49,090 nucleotides of DNA from Oscillospiraceae bacterium. GTDB taxonomy: Bacteria > Bacillota > Clostridia > Oscillospirales > Oscillospiraceae. The stretch covers positions 1 through 49,090 of the forward strand of contig SVMH01000010.1 in NCBI GenBank assembly GCA_015067525.1, read 5' to 3'. Shown here one piece after another: positions 19,913 to 35,912 of the stretch (its first letter is position 1; each line of letters starts with the position of its first letter). Made by a program: the position numbers and the translations under genes. Under the pieces are notes generated by a model. That model made no database searches and had not been told where the DNA came from. It was given only the letters and a program-made list of their open reading frames with translations.

Positions 19913-20036
19913 AAGGACACAGTGACCGCAGAGGCCACAGCGGTCGTGAGGACACAGCGACCGTGAGGACACAGCGACCGTAGGGACACAGCGCCCGCGG
20001 AGGACACAGCAACCGCGAGAACTCAGCGACCGTGAG
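19913..20036. repeat. Minisatellite, about seven 17-18-base units
   Basis: Units of the form AGGACACAGCGACCGTG repeat head to tail with small changes (for example GGACACAGCGCCCGCGG and AGAACTCAGCGACCGTG). No frame through the array gives a credible protein. Unit length and the lack of spacers rule out CRISPR. Confidence 0.75.
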
Positions 20037-20068
20037 GCGGCCGGCCGCCAACTGTTACCTGTTACCTG

Positions 20069-21184
20069 TTAACTGTTTACTGTCCCCATCACCGCGCCGT
20101 ACTTTTCAAACAGCGCCTCGAAGCGGCGCTTCTGCGCGGCGGTCATGCGCGCGGCGTACTTGGCGGCCAGCGCCTGTGCCGCAGCGGCGTCACCGGCGGA
20201 GAGATAGTTGCCCATGGCCCGCTGGAGGCTCTCGGCGGCGGTGGAGCTGAGGGTCTGGGCCTTGGGTGCAGCGTCGCTCACCTTGCCGCTGTTGACTTTT
20301 CTGCCGTCCGACGCCTTCTGCTCCTGGGCGGCCTTGTCGGCAAAATAATGGAGCATGGTCTTGTAGGCGTTGTAGTCGCGGTCATAGGCCGCGTCGTAGG
20401 CGCTCTCGGCGGCCTTGAGCTGGGCCTGCCACGCCTCATAGGCCTGCTCCCACGCCGCCTTTTCCGCCTTCTGCTGCTGCGCGGTCAGCTCATAGCGCTG
20501 CTGCGCGGCGTCGCCCTCGGTCTCATAGCGCTTGCGGGCGTTCTCCTCCAGCTGGGGGAGCAGGGCGGCCAGCTGCTGCAGGTAGCCGTTGTAGGACTGC
20601 TGGGCCGCCGTCTGGGCATAGGTGGAGCCGTAGCCGCCGGTGAGGGCGGCGGACTTGCCCAGCGTGTCCTCCATGGCCTGTCTGCCCGAGCGCTCGTAGA
20701 GCTGGGCGTAGCTGTGATAGGCCGCGTCCTCCTTGGGATCGTAGGAAAAGCCGGGGCGGCTCACCAGCTCATCGTACAGGCGCAGCAGCTCCTCTTCAAA
20801 GGAGGACTGATAGTCCCCGGGGCGGATGGCGGCCACGCTGTCGCGCTCGGCCTGGGCGGCGGACACCTCATCAGAGGGCGCGTAGCCCTGCTCCAGCTGA
20901 AACAGGCGGTCGCTGGTCTCGTCGGACACGCCGGAGAGCACCTGCTTGCCGGTGCTGCCGCCGGCGGCGGAAGAGGTGGTGTTCAGCAGGCTGCTCCACG
21001 TGGAATTGCCCACGATGCCGTCGGCGGTGAGGCCGTTTTTCGCCTGATAGTCCTTCACCGCCTTCTGGGTGGCGGCGCCGAACACGCCGTCCACCGTCAG
21101 GGAATAGCCGTTTGCGTTGAGTTTTTCCTGCAGCGCCGACACGGCCGAGCCGGTGCTGCCGTAGCTTACCTGTGCGTATGCCAT
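20069..21184 (-). CDS. Peptidoglycan-binding, coiled-coil virion-cassette protein
   Basis: A 371-residue protein. Residues ~8-68 form a peptidoglycan-binding_1 domain (GSTGSAVSALQEKLNANGYS, then VDGVFGAATQKAVKDYQAKNGL and ADGIVGNSTW). The rest is Ala/Gln/Glu-rich helix with long coiled-coil stretches (residues ~190-310). No catalytic lysozyme or amidase domain is present. It is the last gene of the virion cassette, 10 bases after the fibre-like gene. A virion-associated wall-binding, ejection or anchoring protein is a reasonable guess. The stop codon lies inside a GTTAACTG-type repeat (GTAAACAGTTAACAG on its strand). Confidence 0.65.
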   Translation of the reverse strand: MAYAQVSYGSTGSAVSALQEKLNANGYSLTVDGVFGAATQKAVKDYQAKNGLTADGIVGNSTWSSLLNTTSSAAGGSTGKQVLSGVSDETSDRLFQLEQGYAPSDEVSAAQAERDSVAAIRPGDYQSSFEEELLRLYDELVSRPGFSYDPKEDAAYHSYAQLYERSGRQAMEDTLGKSAALTGGYGSTYAQTAAQQSYNGYLQQLAALLPQLEENARKRYETEGDAAQQRYELTAQQQKAEKAAWEQAYEAWQAQLKAAESAYDAAYDRDYNAYKTMLHYFADKAAQEQKASDGRKVNSGKVSDAAPKAQTLSSTAAESLQRAMGNYLSAGDAAAAQALAAKYAARMTAAQKRRFEALFEKYGAVMGTVNS

Positions 21185-21194
21185 AGTGTTCTCC

Positions 21195-23030
21195 TTACTT
21201 GGTGTATTTCACGGTGATGTACGCCTGATAGCCGGACAGGTCCCAGGTGGTGGAGATCCACAGATTGCCGGTGGCGCGGGTGTAGCCCATGTTCTCGACG
21301 GCATAGTAGCCGGGGATGGGGATGATGTAGCTCGCGCCCACGGCAAAGCCCCGCATATCGATGATGTGGAGGCCCGCCGGCAGGGCGTAGTTCTCCGCCT
21401 CGGTGCTGTTGGGCAGCGCCCCGTAATCCACCACCATAGCGTAGACCGGCGCGCCGTTCCACTTCTCCCCTGTCAGGTACTCCACGCCCAGCACCATGTC
21501 CGGTGCGGCGGAGAGCTGCGCTTCCAGCGCCGCCGTCTCCTCTTCCAGCGCGGCGATGCGCTCGGTGTGCTGCTGCAGCTGCGCCTGCGATGCCTGCGCC
21601 GCCGTTTCCAGCCGTGCATCCAGCGTCTGCAGGGGTACGGCGTCGCCGTCCTCCTGCGGTGCGGCCAGGCCCGTCAGGCGGTTGCCCCGCAGGTCCACGC
21701 TCCACTCGCTCTCCAGCCAGCCGTCGTGCTCGGCGTATTTGCCGAAGGCGGCGCCGCAGCCGCCCTCCCGCAGATGGAAGGCCACGGCGGCGGTGGGGAT
21801 GGAATAGACCACCGCGCGGCTGCCGCCCAGCGCGTCCACCGCCTCCACCTCCATCTGATAGCTGGCGCCCACGGAAAATCCGGACAGCACCGCCGTTTCT
21901 CCCTGCGCCAGCGCGGTGTAGCCGCTCCACGAGCCGCCCACGGCGCGGTATCGCCCGCGCAGGGACACCGTGTTGTGACCATCCACCGGTGAGCAGACGG
22001 CCGACGCTGTGACGGCGGCGCAGGTGCCGCTGTCATCGGCCTGCCCGTCGCTGCCGGCGCGGAAGGCCGCGCTGTGGGTAAAGGCGGGGGCGGCGTAGTC
22101 GTGCACCGTGATGGCCTCGCCCTCCCACACCGCCGTTTTGCCGCGGCTGTCGGTCACGGTAACCCGGGGACGGAAGGTGCCCGCCTGGGGCAAAAGAGGC
22201 GTGGTGCCGGCAAGTCCCTCTGCCGCCGCGCCGCCGCAGGTGAAGCGGCAGAGGGTGACGGTTGCCCCCTCCTGCCCCTGCGCGGTCACGGCGTAGGACA
22301 GGGCCGTTTTGCCCTTCACCGCCGCGTTCCACGCCTGCGGCACGCTGCCGCTTTGGAAGCTGACCGCCACTGCCGTTACCTGCGGGGCAAGGCTGTCGGG
22401 CACCAGCAGCGTGACGGGATAGTCCTGCGTGCCGATGACCGTCTCGCCGCTCCACGTGGTGACGGTAACGGTGGCCTGCCCTTCGCCTGCCGACCCCAGC
22501 TCCCGGGCAAGGGACACAGGCGGCGTCCATTCCACGCTCTTTTCCATGCCGCGGGACAAAACGGTGCCCGCGGCGTCACCCAGACGGTAATCCGCCGCCC
22601 ACGTCAGCCCCTCCGCGCCGGAAAAGGTCAGCGTGGCGGCCTGACCCAGCGTGCACACCGGCGCCGTCAGCGCGGCGCAGCGGGGGATGCGGGGCAGGGC
22701 GATGGTGGTCTGGGCGGTGCGCAGGCCGGTCATGGGCGTGTTGACGTTGAACTCCGCCGCCACGGTGACGCTTTTGCTGCCGTCGGCCTCGTGGGTCACG
22801 GTGTGCACCGCGTCATAAAGGGTCGTGGTGGTGTTGATGTACACCCACTTGCCGTCAAGGGACGCCGCCTCCGCGCCGTCGATGAGCACGCGGCCCAGCG
22901 TTCTGCCGGTCTGACTGTAGGTGCCCGAATCGGTGGTGATCTTCACCACGATGGCCACCTGCGAGGTGTTGTGAGCCACGCTGCAGCTGTCCGCCACCGG
23001 CGTGACCGTCAGATTCAATACAGCTCCCAT
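21195..23030 (-). CDS. DUF859-like phage minor structural (fibre) protein
   Basis: A 611-residue beta-rich protein. It begins with a strand-rich domain (SVAHNTSQVAIVVKITTDSG), continues through repeated Ig/fibronectin-like sections, and has the VYSIPTAAVAFHLREGG ... AAFGKYAEHDGWLESEW stretch typical of DUF859 minor structural proteins of Firmicutes phages. A short coiled coil (about 475-510) leads to a C-terminal beta domain (LPAGLHIIDMRGFAVGASY), probably the receptor-binding tip. It is likely a tail fibre or collar protein. It starts 3 bases after the preceding gene, so it is part of the same transcript. Confidence 0.75.
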   Translation of the reverse strand: MGAVLNLTVTPVADSCSVAHNTSQVAIVVKITTDSGTYSQTGRTLGRVLIDGAEAASLDGKWVYINTTTTLYDAVHTVTHEADGSKSVTVAAEFNVNTPMTGLRTAQTTIALPRIPRCAALTAPVCTLGQAATLTFSGAEGLTWAADYRLGDAAGTVLSRGMEKSVEWTPPVSLARELGSAGEGQATVTVTTWSGETVIGTQDYPVTLLVPDSLAPQVTAVAVSFQSGSVPQAWNAAVKGKTALSYAVTAQGQEGATVTLCRFTCGGAAAEGLAGTTPLLPQAGTFRPRVTVTDSRGKTAVWEGEAITVHDYAAPAFTHSAAFRAGSDGQADDSGTCAAVTASAVCSPVDGHNTVSLRGRYRAVGGSWSGYTALAQGETAVLSGFSVGASYQMEVEAVDALGGSRAVVYSIPTAAVAFHLREGGCGAAFGKYAEHDGWLESEWSVDLRGNRLTGLAAPQEDGDAVPLQTLDARLETAAQASQAQLQQHTERIAALEEETAALEAQLSAAPDMVLGVEYLTGEKWNGAPVYAMVVDYGALPNSTEAENYALPAGLHIIDMRGFAVGASYIIPIPGYYAVENMGYTRATGNLWISTTWDLSGYQAYITVKYTK

Positions 23031-23033
23031 CCC

Positions 23034-23759
23034 TTATCCTCCGATCCACTGGAATGCCAGCCCGCTCTTGTCCGCTATCTCCCACCGGCCCACAGCCACG
23101 CTGCGCAGCACGGTGATGTCGGCGATGTAGAGGCGGTTGTTGCTGACGTAGGCCACCTCCACGGCGTCCTGCCAGAAGCTGAGCTTGGCGGCGGTGAAGG
23201 TGGCGCGGAAATTCTTCTGCTCTACCACACGCTGCCCGTCCACCTCCTGCACCGCCAGATCCTGACCGACAGCCACGCCGTACACCGGCACGGCGCCGTC
23301 ATAGCTGACGATGCCGGTGCGGATGTAGCCCTCCGTGTCCACGCGGTAGCTCTCAAAGGCGGCGGTGACGGCGTCCACATCCGTCTGCAGGTCGGAGAGA
23401 AAGCGGTAATACTGGCTGATGCCGGCGGCGTCGCCCTCGATGGCGGCGTTGAGCTGCTGGAGATAGGTGCCAAAATCGCTGACCGCCACATACTGCCCCG
23501 CCAGCTCCAATCGCACCTTGTCCATCTCGGCGCGCACCTGACGGGCCGTGCGGGTGATGAGGCTTTTGAGATTCTGATACTGCTCCTTTTCCTCCGGCGT
23601 CACGGCGGCGCGCTGATTGGTGGATACCGGCACAGCGCCGCCCAGACCGTCCAGCGCCAGATTCAGCTGCTGGGCCATCTGGAAGAGATAGGCGTACTGC
23701 CGCGCCAGCTGCTCGCGCGTGTCGCCGCGGGGGCTGGGCGGCAGGGAAATGACACTCAT
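23034..23759 (-). CDS. Virion-cassette structural protein of unknown role
   Basis: A 241-residue protein. The N-terminal two-thirds is helical and charged (QYAYLFQMAQQLNLALDGLGG, then KEQYQNLKSLITRTARQVRAEMDKV), and the last third is beta-rich (FRATFTAAKLSFWQDAVEVA). This helix-then-beta layout fits a tail or baseplate component joining the fibre to the tail. I do not recognise a named family. Its start overlaps the stop of the propeller-like gene by 4 bases (ATGA), which couples their translation. Confidence 0.6.
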   Translation of the reverse strand: MSVISLPPSPRGDTREQLARQYAYLFQMAQQLNLALDGLGGAVPVSTNQRAAVTPEEKEQYQNLKSLITRTARQVRAEMDKVRLELAGQYVAVSDFGTYLQQLNAAIEGDAAGISQYYRFLSDLQTDVDAVTAAFESYRVDTEGYIRTGIVSYDGAVPVYGVAVGQDLAVQEVDGQRVVEQKNFRATFTAAKLSFWQDAVEVAYVSNNRLYIADITVLRSVAVGRWEIADKSGLAFQWIGG

Positions 23760-25465
23760 GTCTCCTCACTTCCCTTCTCATACACGGCGCTGACGGAGCG
23801 CAGCGTGCAGCCGCCCGTGCCCTGCAGCCGCAGCCGCAGATGGGCACAGCGGCGCGGACGCAGATGGAGCGTTACCGCCTCACCGCCGCCGCGGCCGGTG
23901 ATACCGCCCTGCGCCTGCCACGTTTCGCCGCCGTCATAGCTCAGGGCGGCGCGGACCGTGGCGCCCCGCGCCATCTGCAGGCGCAGGGAGAGGCGCATGG
24001 GATAGGCGTGCTCGGCAGTGGCAAAACCCAGCTCCCCCGTCTCCGCCAGCCACGAAAGGGGCGCTTCCTCCTCCCCTTCGCCGCCGCGCAGAGCCAGCAC
24101 GCGGCCCTGCGCCGTCAGCGCGTAGAGGGCGCCGTCAAGGGCGGCAAAATCGGTGACGTGCAGCGCGTCCTCCTCATGCCACAAGCGGCGTCGGGTGTCG
24201 TACACCAGCAGATGCCGCGCCTCCCCCTCCGCCGCGCTGAGGTAGTACCGGCCCTGCCACACACCGGCGCAGGCATTTTGCAGCTCCATGCCGCCCAGCG
24301 GCGCCGATACCGTCACCGGCAGGCTGCCGTCAAAGGCGTACACGCCGCCGCGGCCCACGTAGTACAAAGTGCCGTCCACCGCCGCCACACTCTTGCGGCA
24401 GCCCGGCAGCACGCCGGGGCACTCCAGCGTCACCATGCGGTGGGCGCCGGAATCGGAGGGATAGAGCCGCTCGATGCAGTTCTCCTTGCAGAAAAGCACG
24501 CTGCCCAGATAGCTCACCGCCGCGGTAAAGGGGCCGTCGGAGCCGCGGGAGGCGGCGTAGCTGTCGGTGGAGAGACCGGCAAAGCAGTTCCAGTTGCGAA
24601 AATCGCCCAGCTTGCTGGCGTACACCTCGTTGACGGCGCGGCCGTCCACCACGCCGTACTTGCAGCCCCACAACCGGTTGCCGCACTCGGTGACATAGTC
24701 CATCTCCGGCACAGCGCGCCTCACCGTCACCGCGGCGGTCTGCACGCCGTCGCCCTTCACGCTGCCTGCCACCACCAGCGCGTCATCCTCCACCAGACGC
24801 AGCACGTGCAGCCCGTTGAGCGATCCCTCTTCGCAGCCCATGATCTCCACGCCGTCGCCTGCGGCAAAGCCTGCGCCGATGTGGGGGCACTGCAGCTTCA
24901 CGCATACGTCCGCCGCCTCGTTCCACACGCCGTCAGCAAAGCGGTACAGCACGCCCTCGCCGCCGGACAGCCACAGTGCGCCCTCCTGCGGCTGCTGCGG
25001 CGCATCGTCGGACACGGTGTAGTCGCCCCATGGGCTGCCGTCGCCGCGGCACAGGGAGAAGGACACCTCGCCCGCTGTCACCACCGTGTTCTCCAAGTGG
25101 CCGAACTGGGTCATATCCCGCAGATTCAGCCACATTTTGTCGGGAAAAATCACCAGATACGCGCCCATGGATACCAGCTGCTTCTCCCCCTGCGACAGGG
25201 TAAGACCTGTGGCAAGGCCGTTGACGTACAGCGTGCTGCCCTCCACCCAGATCAGGCTCTCCCGCGCCGCAAGGCCGCCGGGCGCGGTGAGGGACGCCAC
25301 GCTGAGACGCCGCGGCCGCACCTGCAGCGCAGGATAGCTGTCGGCGCACAGGTTCTCCATGCGCGCCGCCGTGCCTGCCGCCGCGCCCTCGCGCCGGTCA
25401 AGACCGTGGAAGCTGCTCACCGTCACGCGCTGCAGCGTCGGGGCGGCCAGCTTGCGAAAATACAT
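23756..25465 (-). CDS. Large beta-propeller-like virion protein (tail nozzle candidate)
   Basis: A 569-residue beta-rich protein with several blade-like repeats: ESLIWVEGSTLYVNGLATG, QLVSMGAYLVIFPDKMWLN, GNRLWGCKYGVVDGRAVNEVYAS, AVDGTLYYVGRGGVYAFDG and GALYALTAQGRVLAL. This W/Y-G-x-L pattern resembles the nozzle/stabilisation proteins of short-tailed phages. The cassette has no tape-measure, tail-tube or sheath gene, which also favours a short tail. It is 15 bases downstream of the adaptor-like gene and overlaps the next gene by 4 bases. The nozzle call is inference; beta-propeller structural protein is the safer statement. Confidence 0.6.
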   Translation of the reverse strand: MYFRKLAAPTLQRVTVSSFHGLDRREGAAAGTAARMENLCADSYPALQVRPRRLSVASLTAPGGLAARESLIWVEGSTLYVNGLATGLTLSQGEKQLVSMGAYLVIFPDKMWLNLRDMTQFGHLENTVVTAGEVSFSLCRGDGSPWGDYTVSDDAPQQPQEGALWLSGGEGVLYRFADGVWNEAADVCVKLQCPHIGAGFAAGDGVEIMGCEEGSLNGLHVLRLVEDDALVVAGSVKGDGVQTAAVTVRRAVPEMDYVTECGNRLWGCKYGVVDGRAVNEVYASKLGDFRNWNCFAGLSTDSYAASRGSDGPFTAAVSYLGSVLFCKENCIERLYPSDSGAHRMVTLECPGVLPGCRKSVAAVDGTLYYVGRGGVYAFDGSLPVTVSAPLGGMELQNACAGVWQGRYYLSAAEGEARHLLVYDTRRRLWHEEDALHVTDFAALDGALYALTAQGRVLALRGGEGEEEAPLSWLAETGELGFATAEHAYPMRLSLRLQMARGATVRAALSYDGGETWQAQGGITGRGGGEAVTLHLRPRRCAHLRLRLQGTGGCTLRSVSAVYEKGSEET

Positions 25466-25480
25466 CCTCCCCGCCCCCTT

Positions 25481-25834
25481 TCAGCACAGCTTCAGCGCCG
25501 CGGCGCGCGCAGGTGCTGCGCCGCCCCGCGCGCGGTAGTCCCGCCACGAGAGGAACAGCTCGTTCCACGCGGCCATGGCGTTGTTGTAGCGGCTCATCTC
25601 GCCGTTGTGGTAGTGGATCTGGGCCTCCACATAGCGGCAGTACAGGCCGTCATAGGGCATCTGCGCCGTCAAAACGGCGTCGTCTGCCAGATTGGCCGGT
25701 GCGCTGCCGCCCGCCTCCAGCGCGCAGAAGCCCTCGGCCTGTGCCAGCCAGTGGCGCTTCTGGGCGTCGGAGTAGCCGTTGGGCAGGGTGTCATCCACCT
25801 GCCCCAGCACCCACAGTGCCGTGATTTGGGACAT
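25481..25834 (-). CDS. Head-tail adaptor-like protein
   Basis: A 117-residue mostly helical protein: GYSDAQKRHWLAQAEGFCALEAG, then MPYDGLYCRYVEAQIHYHNGEMSRYNNAMAAW. Size, helix content and position between the capsid genes and the large tail-like protein match the head-completion (adaptor) proteins of tailed phages, which plug into the portal ring. ATG 25834 follows AAAGGAGGGG. No sequence motif proves the role, so the call leans on gene order. Confidence 0.6.
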   Translation of the reverse strand: MSQITALWVLGQVDDTLPNGYSDAQKRHWLAQAEGFCALEAGGSAPANLADDAVLTAQMPYDGLYCRYVEAQIHYHNGEMSRYNNAMAAWNELFLSWRDYRARGGAAPARAAALKLC

Positions 25835-25850
25835 CACGTCCCCTCCTTTC

Positions 25851-26051
25851 TCAGTCGGCCATACGGTCCACGTAGCGCCGCGCCTCCTCGGCCATGCGGC
25901 GGTTGTTCTCCAGCACCTCGGCCACGTAGTCGGGCACCTGTACCTCCACGCCCTTCATGATCTGGAAGCTGCGTCCGTTGACCGATACGATCACGAAATT
26001 CTCCTCGTTCTTTCTGCCGCGAGGCAGCATGATGGTGGTCATCTTGTCCAT
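25851..26051 (-). CDS. Small virion-cassette protein
   Basis: A 66-residue protein with a short N-terminal beta part (ENFVIVSVNGRSFQIMKGVEVQVPDYVAE) and a helical end (VLENNRRMAEEARRYVDR). Proteins of this size and make-up are often found just downstream of phage major capsid genes, but I know no tested function. ATG 26051 is set by GGAGGATC upstream; longer ORFs through this region run into hairpin repeats. The adaptor-like gene follows 16 bases after its stop. Confidence 0.6.
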   Translation of the reverse strand: MDKMTTIMLPRGRKNEENFVIVSVNGRSFQIMKGVEVQVPDYVAEVLENNRRMAEEARRYVDRMAD

Positions 26052-26655
26052 GTCGATCCTCCTGAATGTTGTTGATGTGGGAGTGTTCTTCGCGCTGACG
26101 CTTACGATGCTCCCTGCCATGCCGATGGCGTGTCCTGTCTCCGACGGCCATCTTTCTTTCCACCGGCGGAAAGAAAGATGGGAAAGAAACGCCGCAAGGA
26201 ACCGATGGTTCCTTGACTTCCTTGCACGCATCACTTCCTGCAAGGCGCATCTCCCTGCCGCGCGTTTTGTTGGCACAATCGTTTTCGGCGCAAATGTGGT
26301 ATTGTCCCTGCTCCTGCTCTTGCTGCCGCCCTGCTCTGAAATGTAGAAGTGCAGCGTTCTACATCTTGTAAGGGTGAGCGGCTGAGCGAGTTAGTTGATG
26401 CGGCAATACAACATTTAGTCGATCTTTGACCTGCCGATTACGCGTGGTAACAGAGTCGCATTTTGTGAGCAGACCGGCGTGCAAAGGAAGTTTTGAAACC
26501 ATCGGTTTCAAAGGGCGCTTTTGCATACTTTTGTCGCTCTTGACAAAAGTATGCCTGCGGAGCAAGGACACGCCCACACCCTCGCAGGGGGTATGTGAGC
26601 GTCAGCGGTTCGCTTCACGCCATCTCCGCCCCGCCCGTTCTTAATTGCTCATTCC
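26052..26655. other. 604-base gene-free block with four perfect hairpins
   Basis: It separates the capsid gene from the small head genes of the same transcript direction. Hairpins: CCATCTTTCTTTCC (26148-26161/26168-26181), AAGGAACC (26196-26203/26207-26214), TTTGAAACC (26492-26500/26504-26512) and GCATACTTTTGTC (26523-26535/26542-26554). A TTCTTAATTGCTCATTC-type repeat adjoins the capsid stop. No credible gene is seen on either strand. Confidence 0.7.
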
Positions 26656-27651
26656 TCAGTTGGCGTTGTCGGTGCCGGAATAGCTGGAGCCGCACTCCAC
26701 GCGCACCATGTACTCGTCGTACAGGATGGCGGCGGCGTGGACACCCTTCCAGCCCACGCTGGAGCGCTGATCCAGAGGATCGGCGGTGCCGGAGGAGCCG
26801 CGGGGCTTGACGATGACCTCGGTGCCCTCGCTCAGGTCCACCACGCCGTAAGCGCCCTTGCCCAGGAACAGGCAGGCGTACACGGCGCAGCCGTCCTTGC
26901 CCTCGTTCCAGATCTTGGCCTCGGTGGTCTCCACGAAGCGCACGCCGTGCAGCTCGCCGATCTCGCCGCTGTACAGCTCGGTGACGCCGGCGTACTGGTG
27001 GGCGGCCAGCCATGCCTCGTCCTGACGCAGGTCAAAGGCCACGCTGGGGTGGATGATGCAGATGTACTTGCCGTCGATCTTGGGAGCGTTCATCTTCTTC
27101 AGCTGGGTGGCGGCCTTGGCCACCAGCTCGCCGGTCAGCTTGCAGTCGGCGGTCAGGGCGCTGCGGCTGGTCACTTCGGCGCCGTCAGCCATGGGGGCGT
27201 AGATCACCTGGTTGCCCTGCACGATCTCGTTGCGGGTCACGGTGTCCAGGGTCAGGCCCATGTTGGCGCCGTGGCGGTCGGTGATCTCCAGCACCACGTC
27301 GTCGATGGCGGTCAGATCCAGCATGTCGGACACGGTGGTGTAGTCGCCGTACTGCTCCAGCTCCTTGGTGATGTAGCTCACGGAGATGCCGCTGCCGTCG
27401 GGGGTCACGCCCTCGGTCAGGGGGGTCAGGGCCTTGTCAAAGGCGCCGAACTTACGCCACTCCACCGTCTTGCCGCCGCCGGCAGGCAGACCCTTGGTGG
27501 CGGCGAACTGGTTGTGCACCAGCTGAGGCTTGGCGTTCTCCAGCAGCTCCATGCCGTAGTAGGTCTTCATCTCGGCGCTCAAGCCGGAAGTGGTCTGGGT
27601 GTTGCTGTCACCTGCGAACATCTGCAGGTGGAAATGCTTGATGTTGTCCAT
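26656..27651 (-). CDS. N4-gp56-type major capsid protein
   Basis: A 331-residue HK97-fold capsid protein of the N4-gp56 family. The family pattern is clear: LSAEMKTYYGMELLENAKPQLVHNQF, KTVEWRKFGAFDKALTPLTEGVTPDG, then TVSDMLDLTAIDDVVLEITDR. Later comes ICIIHPSVAFDLRQDEAW. The N-terminus is MDNIKHFHLQMFAGDSN. HLQMFA matches the LxLQxFA sequence cut by Prp-type proteases, so the mature protein would start at Ala13. ATG 27651 follows AAAGGAGA. It lies downstream of the scaffold-like gene and the Prp-like protease gene of the same cassette. This is the strongest phage identity in the window together with TerL. Confidence 0.9.
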   Translation of the reverse strand: MDNIKHFHLQMFAGDSNTQTTSGLSAEMKTYYGMELLENAKPQLVHNQFAATKGLPAGGGKTVEWRKFGAFDKALTPLTEGVTPDGSGISVSYITKELEQYGDYTTVSDMLDLTAIDDVVLEITDRHGANMGLTLDTVTRNEIVQGNQVIYAPMADGAEVTSRSALTADCKLTGELVAKAATQLKKMNAPKIDGKYICIIHPSVAFDLRQDEAWLAAHQYAGVTELYSGEIGELHGVRFVETTEAKIWNEGKDGCAVYACLFLGKGAYGVVDLSEGTEVIVKPRGSSGTADPLDQRSSVGWKGVHAAAILYDEYMVRVECGSSYSGTDNAN

Positions 27652-27951
27652 CGTTAAATCTCCTTTCCTATTTGCCTTCTCCCTTGGGAGAAGGGGGACC
27701 GCGTCAGCGGTGGATGAGGGGAACCGGACTTCGGATATCCTCCCTATTTGCCTTCTCCCTTGGGAGAAGGGGGACCGCGTCAGCGGTGGATGAGGGGGCC
27801 GATGCCGTGCAGGCCATCGAAAACCCATCTTCGCAAATTTTTTCGCCGCCCGCTCCCCTCATCAGCCGCACTCTCGTGCGGCAGCTTCCCCCCAAAGGGG
27901 AAGCCTTTGGAGTTGCTCCTGTTGAAGCCCCTCGCACAAAAAGGACTTTGA
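27652..27951. other. Gene-free gap with a 55-bp direct duplication
   Basis: The unit beginning CCTATTTGCCTTCTCCC occurs at 27667-27721 and again at 27743-27797, 76 bases apart. It carries the CTCCC/GGGAG stem plus GACCGCGTCAGCGGTGGATG. A related unit in the other orientation lies at about 27855-27910 (CGGCAGCTTCCCCC). No gene is seen. These are chromosomal-type repeats placed between scaffold and capsid genes. Confidence 0.7.
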
Positions 27952-28545
27952 TCAAAACCGGATCTTCTCCCCGTCCATGACGCGGCGGCGGATGTCGGCC
28001 AGCTCGCCGGAAGTCAGGTGTCTGGGATCACTGCGGCTAACGGCAGCGCTGCGCCGTCCGTTTTCCGCCGCCCGTCTTGCCCCGGCTGCCGCGCTGCGTG
28101 CGGTGTGCTGTGCCGTCTGGTGGGCGGCATAGGCCATAGCGGCGCGGAGGATCTCCTCGCGGTGCACCACCTCGTAGGCGGTGCGGGGCGAGACGCCGGC
28201 TGCAATGAGCCGTGCAAACTCGCCGCCCTCCACTTCCCGCTGCCAGTCAAATGCCGGATAAACGGCGCGCACCTCATCGGCTCCGCGCTCCAGGGCGGCA
28301 AAGGCGGCCTTCGCCGTGCGCTGCCGCTCGTCCACGGCATCGCGCAGCGTCTGGTTTTCCCGCTTCAAACCGCGCAGACGACCCTCCAGGATCTTCTGCA
28401 CCCGGGCCTCAAAGTCGGCCTTGTAAGGTCCTCGGATCAGGCTCTCAAAGTCCTGCCGCTCCCCGGCGTCGGGAGCCGTAACGCCCGCTTCTTCCGCTGC
28501 GGAATCCTCCGCAAAGAGCTGTAAATGAAAGATCTTGTCCAACAT
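27952..28545 (-). CDS. Capsid scaffold-like protein with Prp cleavage site
   Basis: A 197-residue helical, highly charged protein immediately upstream of the major capsid gene, which is the standard place for a scaffold. The middle (residues ~35-95) is coiled coil: EARVQKILEGRLRGLKRENQTL, then DAVDERQRTAKAAFAALERG. It begins MLDKIFHLQLFAEDS; HLQLFA is nearly the same as HLQMFA in the capsid protein and fits the Prp motif, with cleavage expected between Phe11 and Ala12. ATG 28545 follows AAAGGAGC; the longer ORF start lies in repeats. The C-terminus is basic, as in scaffolds that bind capsid subunits. Confidence 0.7.
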   Translation of the reverse strand: MLDKIFHLQLFAEDSAAEEAGVTAPDAGERQDFESLIRGPYKADFEARVQKILEGRLRGLKRENQTLRDAVDERQRTAKAAFAALERGADEVRAVYPAFDWQREVEGGEFARLIAAGVSPRTAYEVVHREEILRAAMAYAAHQTAQHTARSAAAGARRAAENGRRSAAVSRSDPRHLTSGELADIRRRVMDGEKIRF

Positions 28546-28599
28546 AATGCTCCTTTCCCAGTGGTAAGCCACGACCTCATGTATCTCCATCCCACCCAC

Positions 28600-28725
28600 C
28601 ACCGCACCCCTCATCAGTCTCGCTGACGCTCGCCAGCTTCCCCCCAAGGGGAAGCCCTTGGAGTTGCTTCTACCCAAGCCTTCTCCCTTGGGAGAAGGTG
28701 TCAGCGAAGCTGACGGATGAGGGGC
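28600..28725. repeat. Paired stem-loop repeats between protease and scaffold genes
   Basis: CTCATCAGTCTCGCTGACG... with GCTTCCCCCC/GGGGAAGC is followed by CCTTCTCCCTTGGGAGAAGG and GTCAGCGAAGCTGACGGATG. These are units of the same stem-loop family as at 27667, in both orientations. Confidence 0.65.
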
Positions 28726-28744
28726 GCTCTACCTTCGCCATCAC

Positions 28745-29020
28745 TTACTCGTTCACCACCCGCACGCACCTGGGATACTCCGTCCCCAGCCACCGTGCGC
28801 CCAGCTCCAGCACCTCGCACCGCGCGCCGTCCTTCAGATGCAGCGCCACGAAGCCGTCCTCCGCCTCCAGCGTCTCCAGCGTCCCCGCCTTCTCCAAAAG
28901 CCGCACCTGCACGTATACCAGCGCGCTCATGGCCGCGCACACGATGTCCTCGCCCCGCTTACCGTATCCGGCGTGGCCTTCCACCGTGGCGGACTTCTCT
29001 TCAAACCGCACGCAGATCAT
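28745..29020 (-). CDS. prp: Prp-type (DUF464) cysteine protease, putative prohead protease
   Basis: A 91-residue protein of the ribosomal-processing cysteine protease family. The catalytic blocks are intact: His16 in VEGHAGYGKRGEDIVCAAMSAL and Cys28 twelve residues later, followed by the typical helix and a beta C-terminus (VALHLKDGARCEVLELG). In Firmicutes the host Prp trims ribosomal protein L27, and in some staphylococcal phages it trims scaffold and capsid proteins at an LxLQxFA-type site. Here the gene sits between portal and scaffold genes, and both scaffold and capsid begin with that site. Its ATG overlaps the portal stop by 4 bases. It is therefore probably a cassette-specific prohead protease, separate from the housekeeping Prp, which should lie in the rplU-rpmA operon elsewhere. 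Confidence 0.82.
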   Translation of the reverse strand: MICVRFEEKSATVEGHAGYGKRGEDIVCAAMSALVYVQVRLLEKAGTLETLEAEDGFVALHLKDGARCEVLELGARWLGTEYPRCVRVVNE

Positions 29021-30840
29021 CGGGGCTGCACCGCCGATCTGGCGCGGCGGCGGCTCAGCTCCATGGCGCCCGTTTTCTTCTCCGCTGCGCGTCCCGCCGT
29101 GCCCTGCACCGCGCCGCCGTATTCCGCCTGCAGCGCCGATACCAGCTCGGTACCCTTCACGCTGTCCACCACCGCCGCGATCTCCAGCAGCTGCTGGCGC
29201 AGACGCTCGATCTCCGCGGCCTGGGTGCGGCTGTGGTCAATGGCGCTGACCACCGCGTCCTTGTTCTTGAAGTCCATCAACTCCAGACACCGCAGGGACT
29301 GCTCGGCCATGTCGGCGCGGAAAAAGCCCATCTGGTACAGCTGCAGCGCCAGCTGATTGTGTTCCATGGTCTGATAGGGGTTCTCCTCCTGTGCGTCGAT
29401 CTCCAGATCGAACTCCGGCACGCGGTAGTGCTCGCCGAAGGCGTCGCGCTCGGTGCGGCCCTGCAGACCTGCGTTGTCGTAGCTGACAAATTCCCCGCCC
29501 TTGCCCAGCAGACGGAACTGACGGGGCAGGCCGTAGAACTGGCGCACCAGCTCGATCACCAGCGTCACCACGTCGGCAAAGGCGTCGTAGCCGTCGGCGA
29601 TCATGTTGCGGCTCAGCTTGCCGCCGGCCTCCTGGAGCGCCGCGATGGCGGTGGCCGCGGTGACGCCGCCGCTGGTGCCTCCGCTGGTCACGTCGCGGTT
29701 GCCGGCCGTCTCCTTCATCTCGGCGATCTTGTTCTGCAGATACGCCACATACACGCCGTCAAGGCTGGCCGCGCGGATGGGCGCGATGGAGTCGGCGCCC
29801 AGATTGCCGTTGGTGTGGACGAAGGGCTGCGTCCAGTCGGCGTACTCCGCCTCGTTCACCGCGCCGTCGGAGCGGATGAAAAAGCGGGGCGTGGCGGCAG
29901 CCAGGGCGTTTTTCAGCATAGCCTGATTGAGAAGGTCGATCTGCTGCTGGGGACTCTTGCACAGGTCCACGTAGCCGTAGCCGCAGGGCGTGCCCTCGGC
30001 GGGAAACAAGGGGTCGAACACGAAGGGATACTTGCCGTGGTCGTACCAGCCACGTGCGGCGTTCTCCTCATTTTCCGTGGCGTACAGTACGTTGTCGCCC
30101 ACGAATTTGCAGTATTGCAGCACTTTTCTGCCGTCTTCGCCCTCGGTGCGGTAATACCAGTCCACCACCAGCGACTTGTCCGCGGTGTCCACGGCGTCGT
30201 CGTAGAGATAGCGGCTCACCTGCCCTCGCGCGCCGCCCAATTTGCCCGCAAGCTGGGGGTATGTACGCAGCAGCTCCTCGTTGTCCGCCAGCTCCGTGGC
30301 GAAAAAGTGGGGCGAATCCTGAATGTCGGTGACGCCCGGCTGCCAGAACAGCTGCAGCAGGTCCATGCTGCGGATCTCGATGTCGCCCAGCCCCGCGTCC
30401 TTCTCCGCGTTCCAGAACACGCCGTACACGGCGCAGCCGGATTTCAGCTTGCGCCACCACGCGTCGGCGTAGACGCGGCGGAAGCGGCTGCGCTTGAGGA
30501 TCACGGGCAGGATGCGGCTGAGCTTTTTGGCCTCCTCCGCGTCGCCCGGCTCCCGGGGCAGCACGGTGGGCTCGGGATAGCTGTCCATGGCGTCTGCGTG
30601 CTTGCTGAGGATGCAGTTGACCAGCCAGCCGCTGGTGGGTCGGGGATCGGCGCTGTTGCCGCCGCTGCCCTTCTTGTCCATTTCCTGCCAGTGACGCAGC
30701 TTCCAGAACTGCTCGTTTTCGATGAGGCGCTGCTCCAGCTGCGCCTTGCCGCGCCGGTATTTTTCCAGCACCTGTGCGGCCTGACGTACCTCCTCGGTGC
30801 CGATGGGCGGACGCACCGCCGCAGTGTTGTTCATGTCCAT
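29017..30840 (-). CDS. Phage portal protein (podovirus/P22-like)
   Basis: A 607-residue portal protein. Recognisable blocks are VRQAAQVLEKYRRGKAQLEQR at the N-terminus, GWLVNCILSKHADAMDSYPEP, KLKSGCAVYGVFWNAEKDAGLGDIEI, and the conserved YGYVDLCKSPQQQIDLLNQAML. The long helical C-terminus (from ENPYQTMEHNQLALQLYQMG) ends basic. Portals form the 12-mer ring through which DNA enters the head. The length fits short-tailed phage portals. ATG 30840 follows AAAGGAGGAC. It heads the downstream cassette transcript, preceded by the shared TTTGCAC-N6-GTGCAAA element at 30895-30914. Confidence 0.85.
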   Translation of the reverse strand: MDMNNTAAVRPPIGTEEVRQAAQVLEKYRRGKAQLEQRLIENEQFWKLRHWQEMDKKGSGGNSADPRPTSGWLVNCILSKHADAMDSYPEPTVLPREPGDAEEAKKLSRILPVILKRSRFRRVYADAWWRKLKSGCAVYGVFWNAEKDAGLGDIEIRSMDLLQLFWQPGVTDIQDSPHFFATELADNEELLRTYPQLAGKLGGARGQVSRYLYDDAVDTADKSLVVDWYYRTEGEDGRKVLQYCKFVGDNVLYATENEENAARGWYDHGKYPFVFDPLFPAEGTPCGYGYVDLCKSPQQQIDLLNQAMLKNALAAATPRFFIRSDGAVNEAEYADWTQPFVHTNGNLGADSIAPIRAASLDGVYVAYLQNKIAEMKETAGNRDVTSGGTSGGVTAATAIAALQEAGGKLSRNMIADGYDAFADVVTLVIELVRQFYGLPRQFRLLGKGGEFVSYDNAGLQGRTERDAFGEHYRVPEFDLEIDAQEENPYQTMEHNQLALQLYQMGFFRADMAEQSLRCLELMDFKNKDAVVSAIDHSRTQAAEIERLRQQLLEIAAVVDSVKGTELVSALQAEYGGAVQGTAGRAAEKKTGAMELSRRRARSAVQPR

Positions 30841-30873
30841 CAAAGTCCTCCTTTGCAAAAGTCCTCTCACCTA

Positions 30874-30936
30874 TACCCTCGCCCGCCCCTGTTTTTTGCA
30901 CGCCAACGTGCAAATTGGGGAAAAGTTTTTGAAAAA
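30874..30936 (-). promoter_or_regulatory. Shared cassette control element, copy 1 (before portal)
   Basis: On the minus strand: TTTTTTCAAAAACTTTTCC, then the dyad TTTGCAC-N6-GTGCAAA (30895-30914), then AAA and, 14 bases on, GGGTATAGG, ending ~30 bases before the portal start. The same order is found at 33553 and 35289. It is likely a promoter with an operator dyad. GGGTAT resembles the -10 region of SigB/SigF-type promoters, but the match is weak. Confidence 0.7.
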
Positions 30937-31090
30937 ATATTTTCTTCATTCGCCCCCCTGTGACGGAGGGCGTCAGCGCGGCTGACGGATGAAGGGGGAC
31001 AGGTTTCGGACGTCCCCCTCGGGCGATTCATGAATCGCCCCTGCGATCCGCGGCGCACCCCCGTATCCCGTAGGCGCACCCCCCGCTCCG

Positions 31091-31304
31091 CAGCCCTCTG
31101 TAGTGGCCGACGACCCGGCGGCCCGTTTGCCCTCTCCCCCACGGTGCGCCGAGGTCGTCGCGCCCTACACCATTTACCGGCCGCTCCCCGCATCCCCGCA
31201 GGCGCACTTCCCGCGCAGCACCCCCCACGCCATACCCTAACCGCACAAACAATGATTCCCTCGCTTATTCTCGTCGGTTTACATAATTTAATTACGGTAA
31301 ATCA
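31091..31304. repeat. ~213-bp direct repeat, copy 1 (downstream of TerL)
   Basis: It starts CAGCCCTCTGTAG, passes through GACCCGGCGGCCCGTTTGCC, GCATCCCCGCAGGCGCACTT and CACGCCATACCCTAA, and ends with a GTTTACATAAT/ATTACGGTAAAT palindrome (31276-31303). Copy 2 lies at 33749-33960 and is about 85-90% alike by eye. Partial copies occur at ~34000-34124 and ~41408-41490. Confidence 0.8.
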
Positions 31305-31323
31305 ATCGCACCCCCGCCAACTG

Positions 31324-32694
31324 TTACCTGTTACCTGCTCGCATATTCAGCGGATCGTCCCCCAGCTCCGCCGCCGGCACCTCGCGCCGCGGTGCAATGG
31401 GCCGCGACATGCAGAAATACCGGCACTCGTCGGCGGCGTGGTCCTCCTGATGGGTGTCCAGATCCTCCACCTCGCTGCCGGAGAAGAGGAGGGCCGGCAC
31501 CGTGCGCAAAAAGGCGCGGCAGGTACGGAACACGTACATCATCGGATACCCCTCGTCGTCAAACCCCAGCCGGTAGTGCATCTGCATCCAGCCCGGGATG
31601 CGCCGGTTGTCGCCCTTGGTGAAATAGATGCGGTAGCGAAGCGCCGTCTCGTAGATGCTCTCGCCGCGGCTGGTGTCCCAGATGGCGGGGTCAGCCACGC
31701 CCTGAATGTCGCGGCCACGGAGCCACGGGTGGGTATCCTCAATTTCCCGAATTTTGGCAAACTGCCGCTCCGGCGTCCAGCGCACGCCCTCGTCGGGGGT
31801 GTCGGTGCAGCCGTAGAGCTCCAGAATGCGGTAGATGACGCCGTCGTAGTCCACCGCCCACCACGCGCAGGAGAAGGGCTTGGCGTAGCCAAAGTCGTAG
31901 CTGCGGTAAACGCGCCACGAGCGGGGGATGTCAAAGGGCTCAATGACGTGGGTCCAGCGCCGATCGGCGTAGTGCTCCGGCGCGTCGGTGAATTCGGGGA
32001 AGAACTGCCCCTCAAATACGTCCCACCTGCCCTCCAGCCACGCCGCGCGCAGCTTGTCCGGCAGAGCCTTCAGCTGCTCCAGATAGTCCGGCTGGGCGCG
32101 CAGCAGCGCCACGTTGTCCGTCACCCGGGCGGGGATGAAGGCGTAGTCCTCCCCCCGCTCCCCTGCCACGTACCGCCGGTCGATGAAGAGCCGCTTGATG
32201 TAGCCGTGTCCCGGCCCGCCGGGGTTGCAGGTGTAGTAGATGCGCTTGGGGAACTCGTTGACGCCGCGCAGACACGCGGCAAACTGCCGCAGCCACTCCT
32301 CGCGCAGCTGCGTGGCCTCGTCGATGAAGATCACGTCGTATTCCGCGCCCTGATAGCGGTCCAGGTCGGCGTCGCAGGCGCAGTAGCCAAAATCCAGCAC
32401 GCTGCCGTTTTGGAAGAGGAACTGCCTTGCGGTGGCCCGATATTCCGCCGCACCGTGGAGCTCTTGGCGCAAAAAGCGCAGATGGTTGTTCTCCAGTTCC
32501 TGATAGGTGCGCCGCAAAAGCAGCATCCGGATGCCCGGGTAGCGCAGGGCCAACAGGCGCGCCTTCTGCCGCACCGCCCAGCTCTTGCCGCCGCCGCGTG
32601 CGCCGCCAAAGGCGATGTATTTTTTCTCACACTCCAGAAATTCCTGCTGTCGCCCGTTGGGCCACTCCATGACCATGATCGTCCCGTCCATCAT
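31324..32694 (-). CDS. terL: Phage terminase large subunit
   Basis: A 456-residue DNA-packaging motor. The ATPase has Walker A GGARGGGKSW (residues 30-39), Walker B VIFIDEA (121-127) and the coupling motif TCNPGGPGH. The nuclease half has acidic residues at Asp267 (YRSYDFGYAKPF), Asp335 (GVADPAIWD) and Asp418 (QEDHAADECRY), all in the expected order. Both activities therefore look intact. ATG ATG at 32694 follows AAGGAATT. The last residues (AGNR) and the stop are encoded inside a TAACAGGTAACAG-type repeat. It lies after TerS in the same direction with a 246-base repeat-filled gap. Confidence 0.92.
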   Translation of the reverse strand: MMDGTIMVMEWPNGRQQEFLECEKKYIAFGGARGGGKSWAVRQKARLLALRYPGIRMLLLRRTYQELENNHLRFLRQELHGAAEYRATARQFLFQNGSVLDFGYCACDADLDRYQGAEYDVIFIDEATQLREEWLRQFAACLRGVNEFPKRIYYTCNPGGPGHGYIKRLFIDRRYVAGERGEDYAFIPARVTDNVALLRAQPDYLEQLKALPDKLRAAWLEGRWDVFEGQFFPEFTDAPEHYADRRWTHVIEPFDIPRSWRVYRSYDFGYAKPFSCAWWAVDYDGVIYRILELYGCTDTPDEGVRWTPERQFAKIREIEDTHPWLRGRDIQGVADPAIWDTSRGESIYETALRYRIYFTKGDNRRIPGWMQMHYRLGFDDEGYPMMYVFRTCRAFLRTVPALLFSGSEVEDLDTHQEDHAADECRYFCMSRPIAPRREVPAAELGDDPLNMRAGNR

Positions 32695-32940
32695 AATTCC
32701 TTCCTCTCTGCCTTCCCCCCATCAAACCCGTAGGGGACGGCGCTTGCCGACGCGGCGCCGCCCGAAAGGCTCCCCTTGTTAGGGGAGCTGGCGCAAAGCG
32801 CCTGAGGGGTAGTCCACCAACGCCCATAATCTCCGCAGGACGCAGCGCTTGCCAACGCGGCGGCCCGTTTGCCCTCTCTCCCGCGGCCCTTGCGGCGCAG
32901 CGCACCAACCGTTAACTGTTAACTGTCACCTGTCACCTGT
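32695..32940. repeat. Repeat-filled gap between TerS and TerL
   Basis: It contains GTAGGGGACGGCGCTTGCCGAC (32730-32751; again at 41123 and 41498), a CTCCCC/GGGGAG stem-loop unit (~32764-32812), a GGCGGCCCGTTTGCCCTCTC stretch shared with the ~213-bp repeat, and a GTTAACTGTCACC repeat abutting the TerS stop. No gene is seen. Confidence 0.7.
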
Positions 32941-33309
32941 TCACACGCTCCAGCGCTCCACCTCGTCGGCCAGTACCAGCCGCACCTCCGGCGCGCCGGT
33001 CTCGTCACTTTTGTGCGCCGCGTCCTCCAGCGCCAGCAGTTCCCGCGTCAGCGCCGCCAGATCCTTCATGTCGCGGATGGTCAGCGTCACGTTCTCGTCC
33101 TCCAGCGTCTCCAGCATGGCCAGACGCAGACGGCTCACCACCTCCGCCGTGTCCTCCGCCCGACTGTTGCGCTCGCCCCAGCCCTCCATGCGCGCCCTGC
33201 GGTACAGCGTGGCAACGGACAGCCCGTGCTTTTCCGCCAGAGCGCGGAAGGTGGCGCCCAGCTCCCGCTCGCAGCGGATGGCCGCCCAGTTCACGGTCTT
33301 CACTTCCAT
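32941..33309 (-). CDS. Terminase small subunit-like protein
   Basis: A 122-residue protein. The N-terminus is a helix-turn-helix of the terminase small-subunit kind: VNWAAIRCERELGATFRALAEKHGLSVATLYRRARMEGW. A helical, acidic remainder (LETLEDENVTLTIRDMKDLAALTRELLAL) could form the oligomerisation part. TerS recognises the DNA to be packaged and loads TerL. ATG 33309 overlaps the end of the zinc-ribbon gene by 10 bases. Its position just before terL supports the call; the family match itself is moderate. Confidence 0.7.
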   Translation of the reverse strand: MEVKTVNWAAIRCERELGATFRALAEKHGLSVATLYRRARMEGWGERNSRAEDTAEVVSRLRLAMLETLEDENVTLTIRDMKDLAALTRELLALEDAAHKSDETGAPEVRLVLADEVERWSV

Positions 33310-33497
33310 TCCCGCTGCCCTCCCGCGCATAAAAAGGGCGCAAAGTAGGCGCGGGCGTAGTCCTCCAGACAACTCTCACAGAACACCTGCCCGTTCACCT
33401 GATAGTAGTCCTCCCCCACGTAGATGGCGTCGCCGCACAGACTGCACTGCTGGCGCACCGCGCTGCCGTCCGCTTCATGGATCATCGCAAATCGCAT
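33300..33497 (-). CDS. Small zinc-ribbon protein heading the terminase operon
   Basis: A 65-residue protein with CSLCGDAIYVGEDYYQVNGQ then FCESCLEDYARAYFAPF: two CxxC pairs about 20 residues apart, a LIM/zinc-ribbon arrangement for one zinc ion. ATG 33497 follows AAAGGAGAC; longer upstream frames run through repeats. It overlaps the TerS-like gene, so the two are translationally coupled. Its direct upstream sequence is control element copy 2. The function is unknown; a DNA- or protein-binding accessory to packaging is a guess. Confidence 0.65.
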   Translation of the reverse strand: MRFAMIHEADGSAVRQQCSLCGDAIYVGEDYYQVNGQVFCESCLEDYARAYFAPFLCAGGQREWK

Positions 33498-35269: not shown

Positions 35270-35330
35270 GTGAAAATTTTCCCTCCTGTTTGCACAGTTC
35301 CGTGCAAAAACGCCGCCGAAACCGGGTATG
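35262..35330 (+). promoter_or_regulatory. Shared cassette control element, copy 3 (before DUF6291)
   Basis: Plus strand: T-run, GTGAAAATTTTCCC, the dyad TTTGCAC-AGTTCC-GTGCAAA (35289-35308), then, 13 bases after GTGCAAAAA, GGGTATGG, ending at the ribosome site TTAGGAGG. The dyad arms match copies 1 and 2 exactly while the centre differs, which is the mark of a protein-binding dyad or RNA stem. Confidence 0.7.
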
Positions 35331-35348
35331 GTTAGGAGGTGTTTTTAT

Positions 35349-35762
35349 ATGACCAATTCGAATCCCCCCGGCGTGCTGCTGCATTTTGAGTGGATGGATT
35401 CCCTGCAGCATCTGAGCCACGAGCAGCTGGGCCGCCTGTTTCTGGCCATTCTGACCTACGGCAAAACCGGCACCGTGCCCGAATGGGACGACCGCTTTCT
35501 TCTCTTTGTCTGGAACGTGCTGCGCCCCCGACTGGATCTGGACCGTGAGCGCTACGCAGCCATTGTGGAAAAGCGCCGCGCCGCCGCCAACAAGCGCTGG
35601 AACAGCCAGAGCGACAGCGCACCAAGCCGCGCCGAGCCCCAGCGCACCGAACCGAAGCACGAACCCCAGCGCAGCTATACGCCCCGCGCCGCCTCTTCCC
35701 GCACCTTCGGTATGCCCGGCTCCATCCTCGCTCCCACGCAGGAAGACCGCATGAACCGTTAG
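35349..35762 (+). CDS. DUF6291-like phage-associated protein
   Basis: A 137-residue protein. The N-terminal ~85 residues (FEWMDSLQHLSHEQLGRLFLAILTYGKTG, then FLLFVWNVLRPRLDLDRERY) match the DUF6291 type found in Firmicutes phage and mobile-element genes, where a basic region (EKRRAAANKRWNS) follows as here. The last ~40 residues are low-complexity, Ser/Arg/Pro-rich. Related proteins are often annotated as replication-module proteins, but I know no tested function. ATG 35349 follows TTAGGAGGTG. It is on the strand opposite to the virion cassette but has the same control element, so it may belong to the same regulon. Confidence 0.65.
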   Translation: MTNSNPPGVLLHFEWMDSLQHLSHEQLGRLFLAILTYGKTGTVPEWDDRFLLFVWNVLRPRLDLDRERYAAIVEKRRAAANKRWNSQSDSAPSRAEPQRTEPKHEPQRSYTPRAASSRTFGMPGSILAPTQEDRMNR

Positions 35763-35789
35763 CTGTGATGCAAATGCATGCACCCCATG

Positions 35790-35882
35790 CCAACCACAAC
35801 TACAACTACAACTACAACCACAGCCACAACCACAGCCACAACCACAACCTCAACCTCAACTGCAACCACAGCCACAACCACA
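35790..35882 (+). repeat. Guanine-poor ACAACC/ACAACT tract (rut-like)
   Basis: About 90 bases made of CAACCACAACTACAAC-type units with only a handful of G. It lies between the DUF6291 stop and the terminator. Such C-rich, unstructured RNA is what Rho binds, so a Rho-utilisation role is possible. A simple expanded microsatellite is the alternative. Confidence 0.6.
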
Positions 35883-35883
35883 T

Positions 35884-35912
35884 GCCCCGGCCCCAACCGG
35901 ACGGGCCGGGGC
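35884..35912 (+). terminator. GC-rich terminator hairpin of the DUF6291 gene
   Basis: Perfect arms GCCCCGGCCC (35884-35893) and complement (35903-35912). A purine-rich stretch and then T-rich sequence follow; the T-run is not immediate. Confidence 0.6.

Follow-up and report, generated by a model that had tools for sequence, protein, structure and literature searches.

The gene transfer agent RcGTA and the other alphaproteobacterial agents are derived from tailed phages, have a long tail, and belong to another phylum than the one considered here; outside Alphaproteobacteria, few such agents are known. The present study concerns a cassette of 13 phage-derived virion and packaging genes (positions 20069 to 33497, minus strand) in a stretch of 49,090 nucleotides of contig SVMH01000010.1 (the window), from an Oscillospiraceae genome (G000) that belongs to the genus of Vescimonas fastidiosa. 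This cassette is read here, with a probability of roughly 0.7, as the late module of a podovirus that was captured in a Vescimonas ancestor, domesticated by the host, and used as a gene transfer agent.

FpGTA of Faecalibacterium is a podovirus-like agent published in Nature Communications in January 2026 (PMC12946183). That report describes particles of about 40 nm carrying 8.4 to 8.9 kb of DNA. It also describes such random DNA packaging in Onthomonas (Oscillospiraceae), whose metagenome-assembled genome (MAG) was searched; the only MAG with a strong operon candidate, however, was one of Faecalibacterium. With its publication, a podovirus-like gene transfer agent is a known kind, and the statement in our first-pass annotation of the window that such an agent was unknown is outdated. 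Compared by description only, FpGTA is, like the present locus, a chromosomal operon limited to structural genes (TerS, TerL, portal, scaffold, capsid, and proteins of short-tail type), lacks replication genes, and is conserved within a genus of gut bacteria from the same class. According to the same report, FpGTA I comprises 10 open reading frames (ORFs) in 10.5 kb, against 13 genes in 13.4 kb here, and a second operon with fibre, holin, and endolysin genes occurs in some strains, whereas the cassette described here has no lysis genes. A further difference from FpGTA, as it is described there, is that terL is unlinked in some Vescimonas species. RcGTA and the alphaproteobacterial agents are like the cassette in being host encoded, in consisting of structural genes only, and in occupying dispersed loci (see also PMC12946183).

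The literature, covered by title and start of abstract with preprints and most subscription journals excluded, yielded no report of the Vescimonas lineage, of an unlinked terL, or of related terminases in other Oscillospirales families. The loci described below are concrete, include one in a named strain (V. fastidiosa MM35), and form a module inherited like host genes, so that gene exchange among common gut bacteria becomes testable by one knockout.

Gene content of the cassette

ORF calling and profile scans of the window proteins revealed 13 open minus-strand genes in phage late order over 13.4 kb, as the first-pass annotation had claimed, and identified them as the packaging, head, and tail module of a short-tailed phage. 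The packaging genes comprise T1 (33300 to 33497), a small zinc-ribbon-like protein with two CxxC pairs (phrog_10625, E value 1.3e-8), T2 (32941 to 33372), a TerS-like protein (phrog_1206, E value 1.5e-4) with homologues 28 to 39% identical in the clade described in the next section, and T3 (31324 to 32694), the large terminase TerL (phrog_2, E value 7.7e-40). Homologues of T1 adjoin TerS or NUDIX genes in members of this clade. The Walker A motif, the Walker B acids, and three nuclease aspartates of TerL, already noticed at first, are invariant in all 20 clade members. The head genes comprise T4 (29017 to 30840), a P22-type portal (phrog_156, E value 1.2e-73; PF16510, E value 2.9e-24), T5 (28745 to 29020), a Prp cysteine protease (PF04327, E value 1.7e-12) that is likely the prohead protease, and T6 (27952 to 28545), a scaffold-like protein (phrog_13908, E value 1.5e-32) that matches the scaffold family phrog_172 only at an E value of 0.025. 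They are followed by T7 (26656 to 27651), the major capsid protein (phrog_1357, E value 3.2e-77; PF25209), whose profile matches the solved capsids 9d7z (E value 2.1e-12) and 9e99 (E value 7.4e-12) and whose homologue in the V. fastidiosa record is annotated as an N4-gp56 family capsid.

The remaining genes encode a small conserved protein (T8, 25851 to 26051; phrog_15239, E value 1.5e-11), a possible head-tail adaptor named from its position alone (T9, 25481 to 25837; phrog_12105, a family with no function), and a tail or internal virion protein (T10, 23756 to 25465; phrog_511, "internal virion protein," E value 2e-49), possibly a nozzle. Profile matches of T9 and T10 to solved structures are at chance level (E values of 0.8 and 0.49, respectively), so that the names "adaptor" and "propeller" first given to them are unproven. 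T11 (23034 to 23759) is minor tail-like (phrog_1885, C-terminal match, E value 0.0012) and has homologues in the clade, T12 (21195 to 23030) is a tail or fibre protein of the DUF859 family (PF05895, E value 2.5e-34; phrog_372, E value 1.9e-58), and T13 (20069 to 21184) is a peptidoglycan-binding virion protein (PF01471, E value 9.1e-20, residues 11 to 66 only), whose likeness to endolysins is confined to this wall-binding domain.

Profile scans of the window genes detected no integrase, repressor, replication, or lysis gene inside the cassette, in agreement with the first reading, and no genes for autonomous replication or integration were found among the scanned window genes or in the V. fastidiosa annotation shown. 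The gene set of a temperate phage, with integrase, repressor, replication, and lysis functions in one element, is absent from the cassette by the same two sources. No lifestyle genes were seen beside cassettes of the same clade in other genomes, whose flanks were assessed from gene calls and a small number of scans. The head, tail, and packaging genes are chromosomal in the window as well as in V. fastidiosa, where the record annotates a terminase, Prp, an N4-gp56 family capsid, DUF859, and a peptidoglycan-binding protein between ferritin-like/hydrolase and ATP-binding/transporter genes, with dnaX, lexA, secG, and gap near the cassette on the same replicon.

Distribution in Vescimonas and phage-like relatives

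The window genome spans 1,973,777 bases in 87 contigs. V. fastidiosa is represented by genome G002, whose contig of 860,917 bases is 100% identical to pMM35_01 of strain MM35 over the 15,000 bases compared. TerL is matched in 27 of 32 genomes of the genus, weakly in one of them (G026, 24% identity). In a terL tree of 168 rows, from which loci with a terL of less than 380 residues (including a copy in G017 with an internal stop, of clade B described below) and identical proteins were dropped, 20 Vescimonas rows form one clade with a support of 100 and no other row inside. The support of this clade is 93 in a smaller tree containing 36 of the 141 non-Vescimonas rows. Three IMG/VR contigs among those dropped (L110, L111, and L112) also fall in the window's clade; their DNA matches that of the window, G008, and G009 at 99.9 to 100% over the main stretches, and they therefore represent the same bacterial loci. 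One further genome, G016, retains the portal gene to T13 without terL and is the 21st with the window's cassette.

Seven more Vescimonas terL rows (clade B) group with IMG/VR contigs in the 168-row tree, and six genomes carry clade B only (G005, G011, G015, G022, G028, and G031). Of the 14 genomes with a completeness of 90% or more and a contamination of 5% or less, the window's clade is present in nine (G001, G002, G006, G009, G017, G018, G019, G021, and G024), a clade B cassette in four, and neither in one. These three states need 5 changes on an RpoB tree of 27 genomes, which shows that losses or replacements occurred.

Clade B elements of G005, G031, G023, and G017 share the gene order from TerL to T10 or T13 with the window's clade, and their terL genes are 60 to 68% identical to it. 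They differ in that the TerL-to-T10 order of the G005 element is surrounded by genes for two replication initiators, a DnaB-like helicase, two endolysins, and a holin, and in that all four carry a protein of approximately 1,900 to 2,900 residues (cut by the end of the stretch in two). Replication or recombination genes also lie upstream of TerS in the IMG/VR contigs L114, L122, and L162 (39 to 42 kb). In comparison with these phage-like relatives, the cassette of the window's clade resembles the late module of such a phage, with the remaining genes absent. The Bacillus phage Page group (Pagevirus) is likewise of podovirus type, with TerS, TerL, and a portal-type joining protein first (in Page) and a capsid approximately 35% identical (in Pony), but it is a complete phage of 39.9 kb.

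Unlinked terL genes

In five genomes of the window's clade, terL lies apart from the portal gene, the place of which after terL is taken by an arginyl-tRNA synthetase gene (G010), a radical SAM protein gene (G020), 2-hydroxyacid dehydrogenase and aminotransferase genes (G027), a DUF1538 gene (G013), or small unnamed genes and a gene for a 716-residue protein (G004). The portal block lies on a separate contig in G027, directly after a methyltransferase gene, and in G020, a few small genes after a QueT transporter gene; a block from the capsid gene to T13 lies on a separate contig of G010, cut by the contig end. The other half of the cassette was not found in G004 (73% complete) or G013 (66% complete). 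In the host tree, G010, G013, and G027 stand together, whereas G020 stands with the unsplit G002 and G025, which indicates that terL was probably split off more than once. The terL gene has been unlinked by chromosomal rearrangement in some species and is still conserved in them. An apparent split in G009 was rejected as a contig break, which the IMG/VR contig L112 spans.

Unlinked terL loci are difficult to explain by a phage that excises. An active phage or phage satellite, with its other genes elsewhere or missed, would have precedents in the G005 element and in L114, L122, and L162, but these relatives lie outside the window's clade, and host genes flank the cassette in both the window and V. 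fastidiosa. With no lifestyle genes seen and terL unlinked in five genomes, this explanation was rejected and is the least probable of those considered.

Inheritance, selection, and integrity

The cassette genes are open, are largely full length, occur in most of the genus, and have co-diverged with the host. Distances correlate with those of RpoB in Spearman Mantel tests for terL (0.39, p = 0.0011), portal (0.32, p = 0.031), capsid (0.38, p = 0.013), T6 (0.53, p = 0.0002), T10 (0.58, p = 0.0001), and T13 (0.46, p = 0.0034). A tree of the concatenated cassette has 6 of 14 bipartitions in common with the RpoB tree over 17 genomes, against an average of 0.28 and a maximum of 3 among 2000 permutations. 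Pairwise synonymous divergence (dS) of terL, portal, T10, and T13 is 0.84 to 1.18 times that of the neighbouring transglutaminase-like (TGase) and NUDIX genes, as if the cassette had been resident as long as those chromosomal genes.

The first-pass annotation had proposed to compare the chromosomal position in relatives and the ratio of nonsynonymous to synonymous divergence (dN/dS) of terL, portal, and capsid. These three genes are under purifying selection, with median dN/dS values (NG86 method) well below 1, at 0.18, 0.24, and 0.235, respectively; the ratios are rough, because dS is near saturation for many pairs. The median is 0.38 for T6, and those of the control genes are 0.13 (RpoB), 0.14 (SmpB), 0.19 (NaSS), 0.27 (TGase), and 0.41 (NUDIX). 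The capsid gene has a low dS, at 0.39 to 0.57 times that of TGase, NUDIX, TetR, NaSS, and SmpB, and a codon usage value of 0.737, compared with 0.716 for RpoB (the reference set) and above 93% of the 585 genes of these regions. This is as expected of a strongly expressed gene, and the low capsid dS accounts for the dN/dS of 0.51 between the capsids of the nearest pair, the window and G012.

The chromosomal neighbourhood is largely conserved. A NUDIX gene lies within approximately 11 kb of terL in 12 of the 20 clade genomes and a DUF6291 gene within 12 kb in 8 of the 20, the window included in both counts; SmpB or DUF6291 is kept near terL in G013 and G027, and the transglutaminase-like gene on the T13 side is common to G001 and G019. 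V. fastidiosa has neither flank in common with the window. T1 or TerS and the NUDIX genes are inverted relative to terL in G004, G009, G017, G021, and G023, and a contig edge ends the terL neighbourhood in G003, G010, and G012. Together with the dN/dS values and the co-divergence with the host, this neighbourhood makes the domestication of the particle genes, as proposed at first, well supported.

Integrity was measured for eight genes in 17 to 20 genomes each, and nearly all copies are full length. Those shorter than 85% of the median are four capsids (window, G008, G012, and G018) and copies at contig ends; the G027 portal stops approximately 8 codons short of the alignment end. The four capsids are without an in-frame segment of approximately 75 residues, near residue 250, that is present in other clade members.

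A decaying prophage remnant that is mostly intact through recent arrival would fit the missing lifestyle genes, the dispersed repeats in the gaps, and the few broken copies (T6 and T10 of G003, T12 of G010). It was rejected as highly improbable: the genes are mostly full length across the genomes measured, terL, portal, and capsid have dN/dS ratios far below 1, and dS matches that of chromosomal neighbours, so that the arrival was not recent.

Proposed use of the particle

In the reading favoured here, a podovirus late-gene module captured in an ancestor within Vescimonas would have been kept by the host, which would make small short-tailed capsids. TerL would fill these with host DNA without strongly favouring its own locus, and kin would receive this DNA from the particles, with the faster-evolving end of the cassette (T9 to T13) perhaps setting the recipient.

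Alternatively, the particle may be kept for another use, such as killing competitors in the manner of PBSX or helping a satellite, with DNA being packaged and not delivered. Any useful particle would account for selection on its genes, the cassette includes a wall-binding protein, and the FpGTA report leaves the same alternative open for FpGTA (PMC12946183). The invariance of the terL catalytic residues in 20 of 20 members and the survival of terL where it is unlinked nevertheless suggest that DNA packaging itself is under selection, and a use other than transfer appears unlikely.

The transfer role is the likeliest use of the particle and is predicted from genome sequence. Several observations weigh against domestication for gene transfer. 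Five of the 32 genomes (G007, G014, G026, G029, and G030; 76 to 97% complete) have no clear piece of the cassette, among them G030 at 97% completeness. The cassette and host trees agree only in part, and a host tree built from RpoB alone is weak. Relative to the more codon-biased RpoB and NaSS, dS of terL, portal, T10, and T13 is 1.2 to 1.9 times as high, and that of the capsid gene is 0.4 to 0.9 times as high; the ratios thus differ with the control gene, and dS agrees with some host genes only. Besides the roughness of the ratios stated above, median dN/dS is higher in T10 (0.48), T11 (0.49), T13 (0.49), and T9 (0.59). T6 and T10 of G003 are each in two frames, and T12 of G010 contains one stop.

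Release from the cell is the weakest point of the proposed gene transfer; the cassette is without a lysis gene. The holin phrog_199, the sole holin family searched, is not in the window genome, the complete G001, or V. fastidiosa. It occurs in 10 of the 32 genomes in mixed contexts, including five of the window's clade. In G017 and G006, the holin has a GH25 lysozyme next to it or close by; in G021, a holin-amidase pair follows tailed-phage-like genes; and in G025, the holin match is part of an in-frame fusion with a MatE protein. In G003 (L446), an isolated holin-amidase pair, with a xanthine/uracil permease gene on one side and a TrkA gene on the other, is possibly a separate lysis locus. 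By analogy with FpGTA II, a separate lysis locus is possible in some species.

Relatives in other lineages of Oscillospirales

A different compact cassette, in which a holin follows T13 at a short distance, occurs in four genomes that form a sister group within the genus and lack the window's clade (G011, G015, G022, and G028, at L315/L316, L222, L223, and L224, respectively); it is apparently a second capture. The same terminase family was found in other families of the order, in 37 of 40 genomes drawn from family f18 and in 15 of 15 from f15, as well as in 30 of 30 re-examined f12 genomes, which had been selected because of an earlier match. Matches are mostly weak in family f22, and in the window's own family a terminase match was obtained in 120 of 300 genomes, many of them weak. 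In the smaller terL tree, the 30 f12, 5 f15, 6 f18, and 8 g15 rows each form one clade, and these clades together are set apart from all phage and genome-contig collection rows; the f19 rows do not form one clade.

Six f18 loci (L419 to L424) run from TerS and TerL through portal, scaffold, and capsid to tail genes, and a scan of one of them (L424) revealed a holin. Five f15 loci (L425 to L429) have TerS and TerL without a portal gene nearby, and the one scanned (L427) lies between transaldolase and DctM genes. All 15 f15 genomes have a capsid gene, in G471 at a distance of 22 kb and in the other 14 on a different contig, and the two f15 capsid loci read (L467 and L468) have portal, scaffold, capsid, and tail genes. 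Loci L419 to L424 of f18, L430 to L434 of f19, and L369 to L376 of g15 are compact podovirus-type cassettes, most with a capsid of approximately 245 to 283 residues. Two f24 loci (L435 and L436) have the window's gene order in approximately 10.5 kb, the size given for FpGTA I in its report (PMC12946183), and L436 adds a holin; the placement of f24 next to Vescimonas is not trusted, because the smaller terL tree warns of long branches meeting.

Window-clade cassettes are also present in two human faecal "Bacteriophage sp." scaffolds from Mexico. MT837590 (L469) covers T2 to T9, with proteins 95 to 100% identical to those of G001, and MT836218 (L470) covers T13 to the portal gene and one neighbour gene, at 97 to 100% identity to G003 except for T6, the best match of which among those listed is to G002 (41%). 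As a lead only, both may come from the purified-particle virome PRJNA646512 (PMC8844717); the passages found of that source are without these accessions.

A broader reading, for and against which we would give even odds as a whole, is that Oscillospirales in general possess domesticated podovirus particles, acquired in more than one capture. It would join the Vescimonas lineage, the holin-bearing cassette of the sister group, and an older lineage in nearly every genome drawn from some families, split in one family into TerS-TerL and portal-capsid-tail loci. If it is true, such clusters would account for the random packaging of DNA observed in particle fractions of the gut for Oscillospiraceae and Ruminococcaceae.

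Flanking genes and repeats

The first-pass annotation had described the flanks as ordinary, which holds for most of them: NUDIX, DUF6291, and P-loop genes lie upstream in the window, and a transglutaminase-like gene and an M20 peptidase gene lie downstream. The exception is DUF6291 (35328 to 35762, plus strand), from the phage-associated family phrog_16304 (E value 3.4e-13). It is a possible associated gene and may belong to the element, because a homologue lies directly upstream of terL in G004, G009, G021, G023, and G027.

The gap between portal and terL (30841 to 31323) consists of dispersed chromosomal repeats, with copies at 33.5 to 34.3 and 41.4 to 41.7 kb. Outside the cassette, pieces of this gap, of the terL-terS gap, and of the capsid-scaffold gap reappear at 33.5 to 34.3, 36.9, and 41.1 to 41.7 kb, which bears out the chromosome-type repeats first noticed there. 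Low-complexity tandem repeats flank the region on both sides, at 35779 to 35894 (CAACCACA type) and at 19915 to 20037 (GGACACAGCGACCG type).

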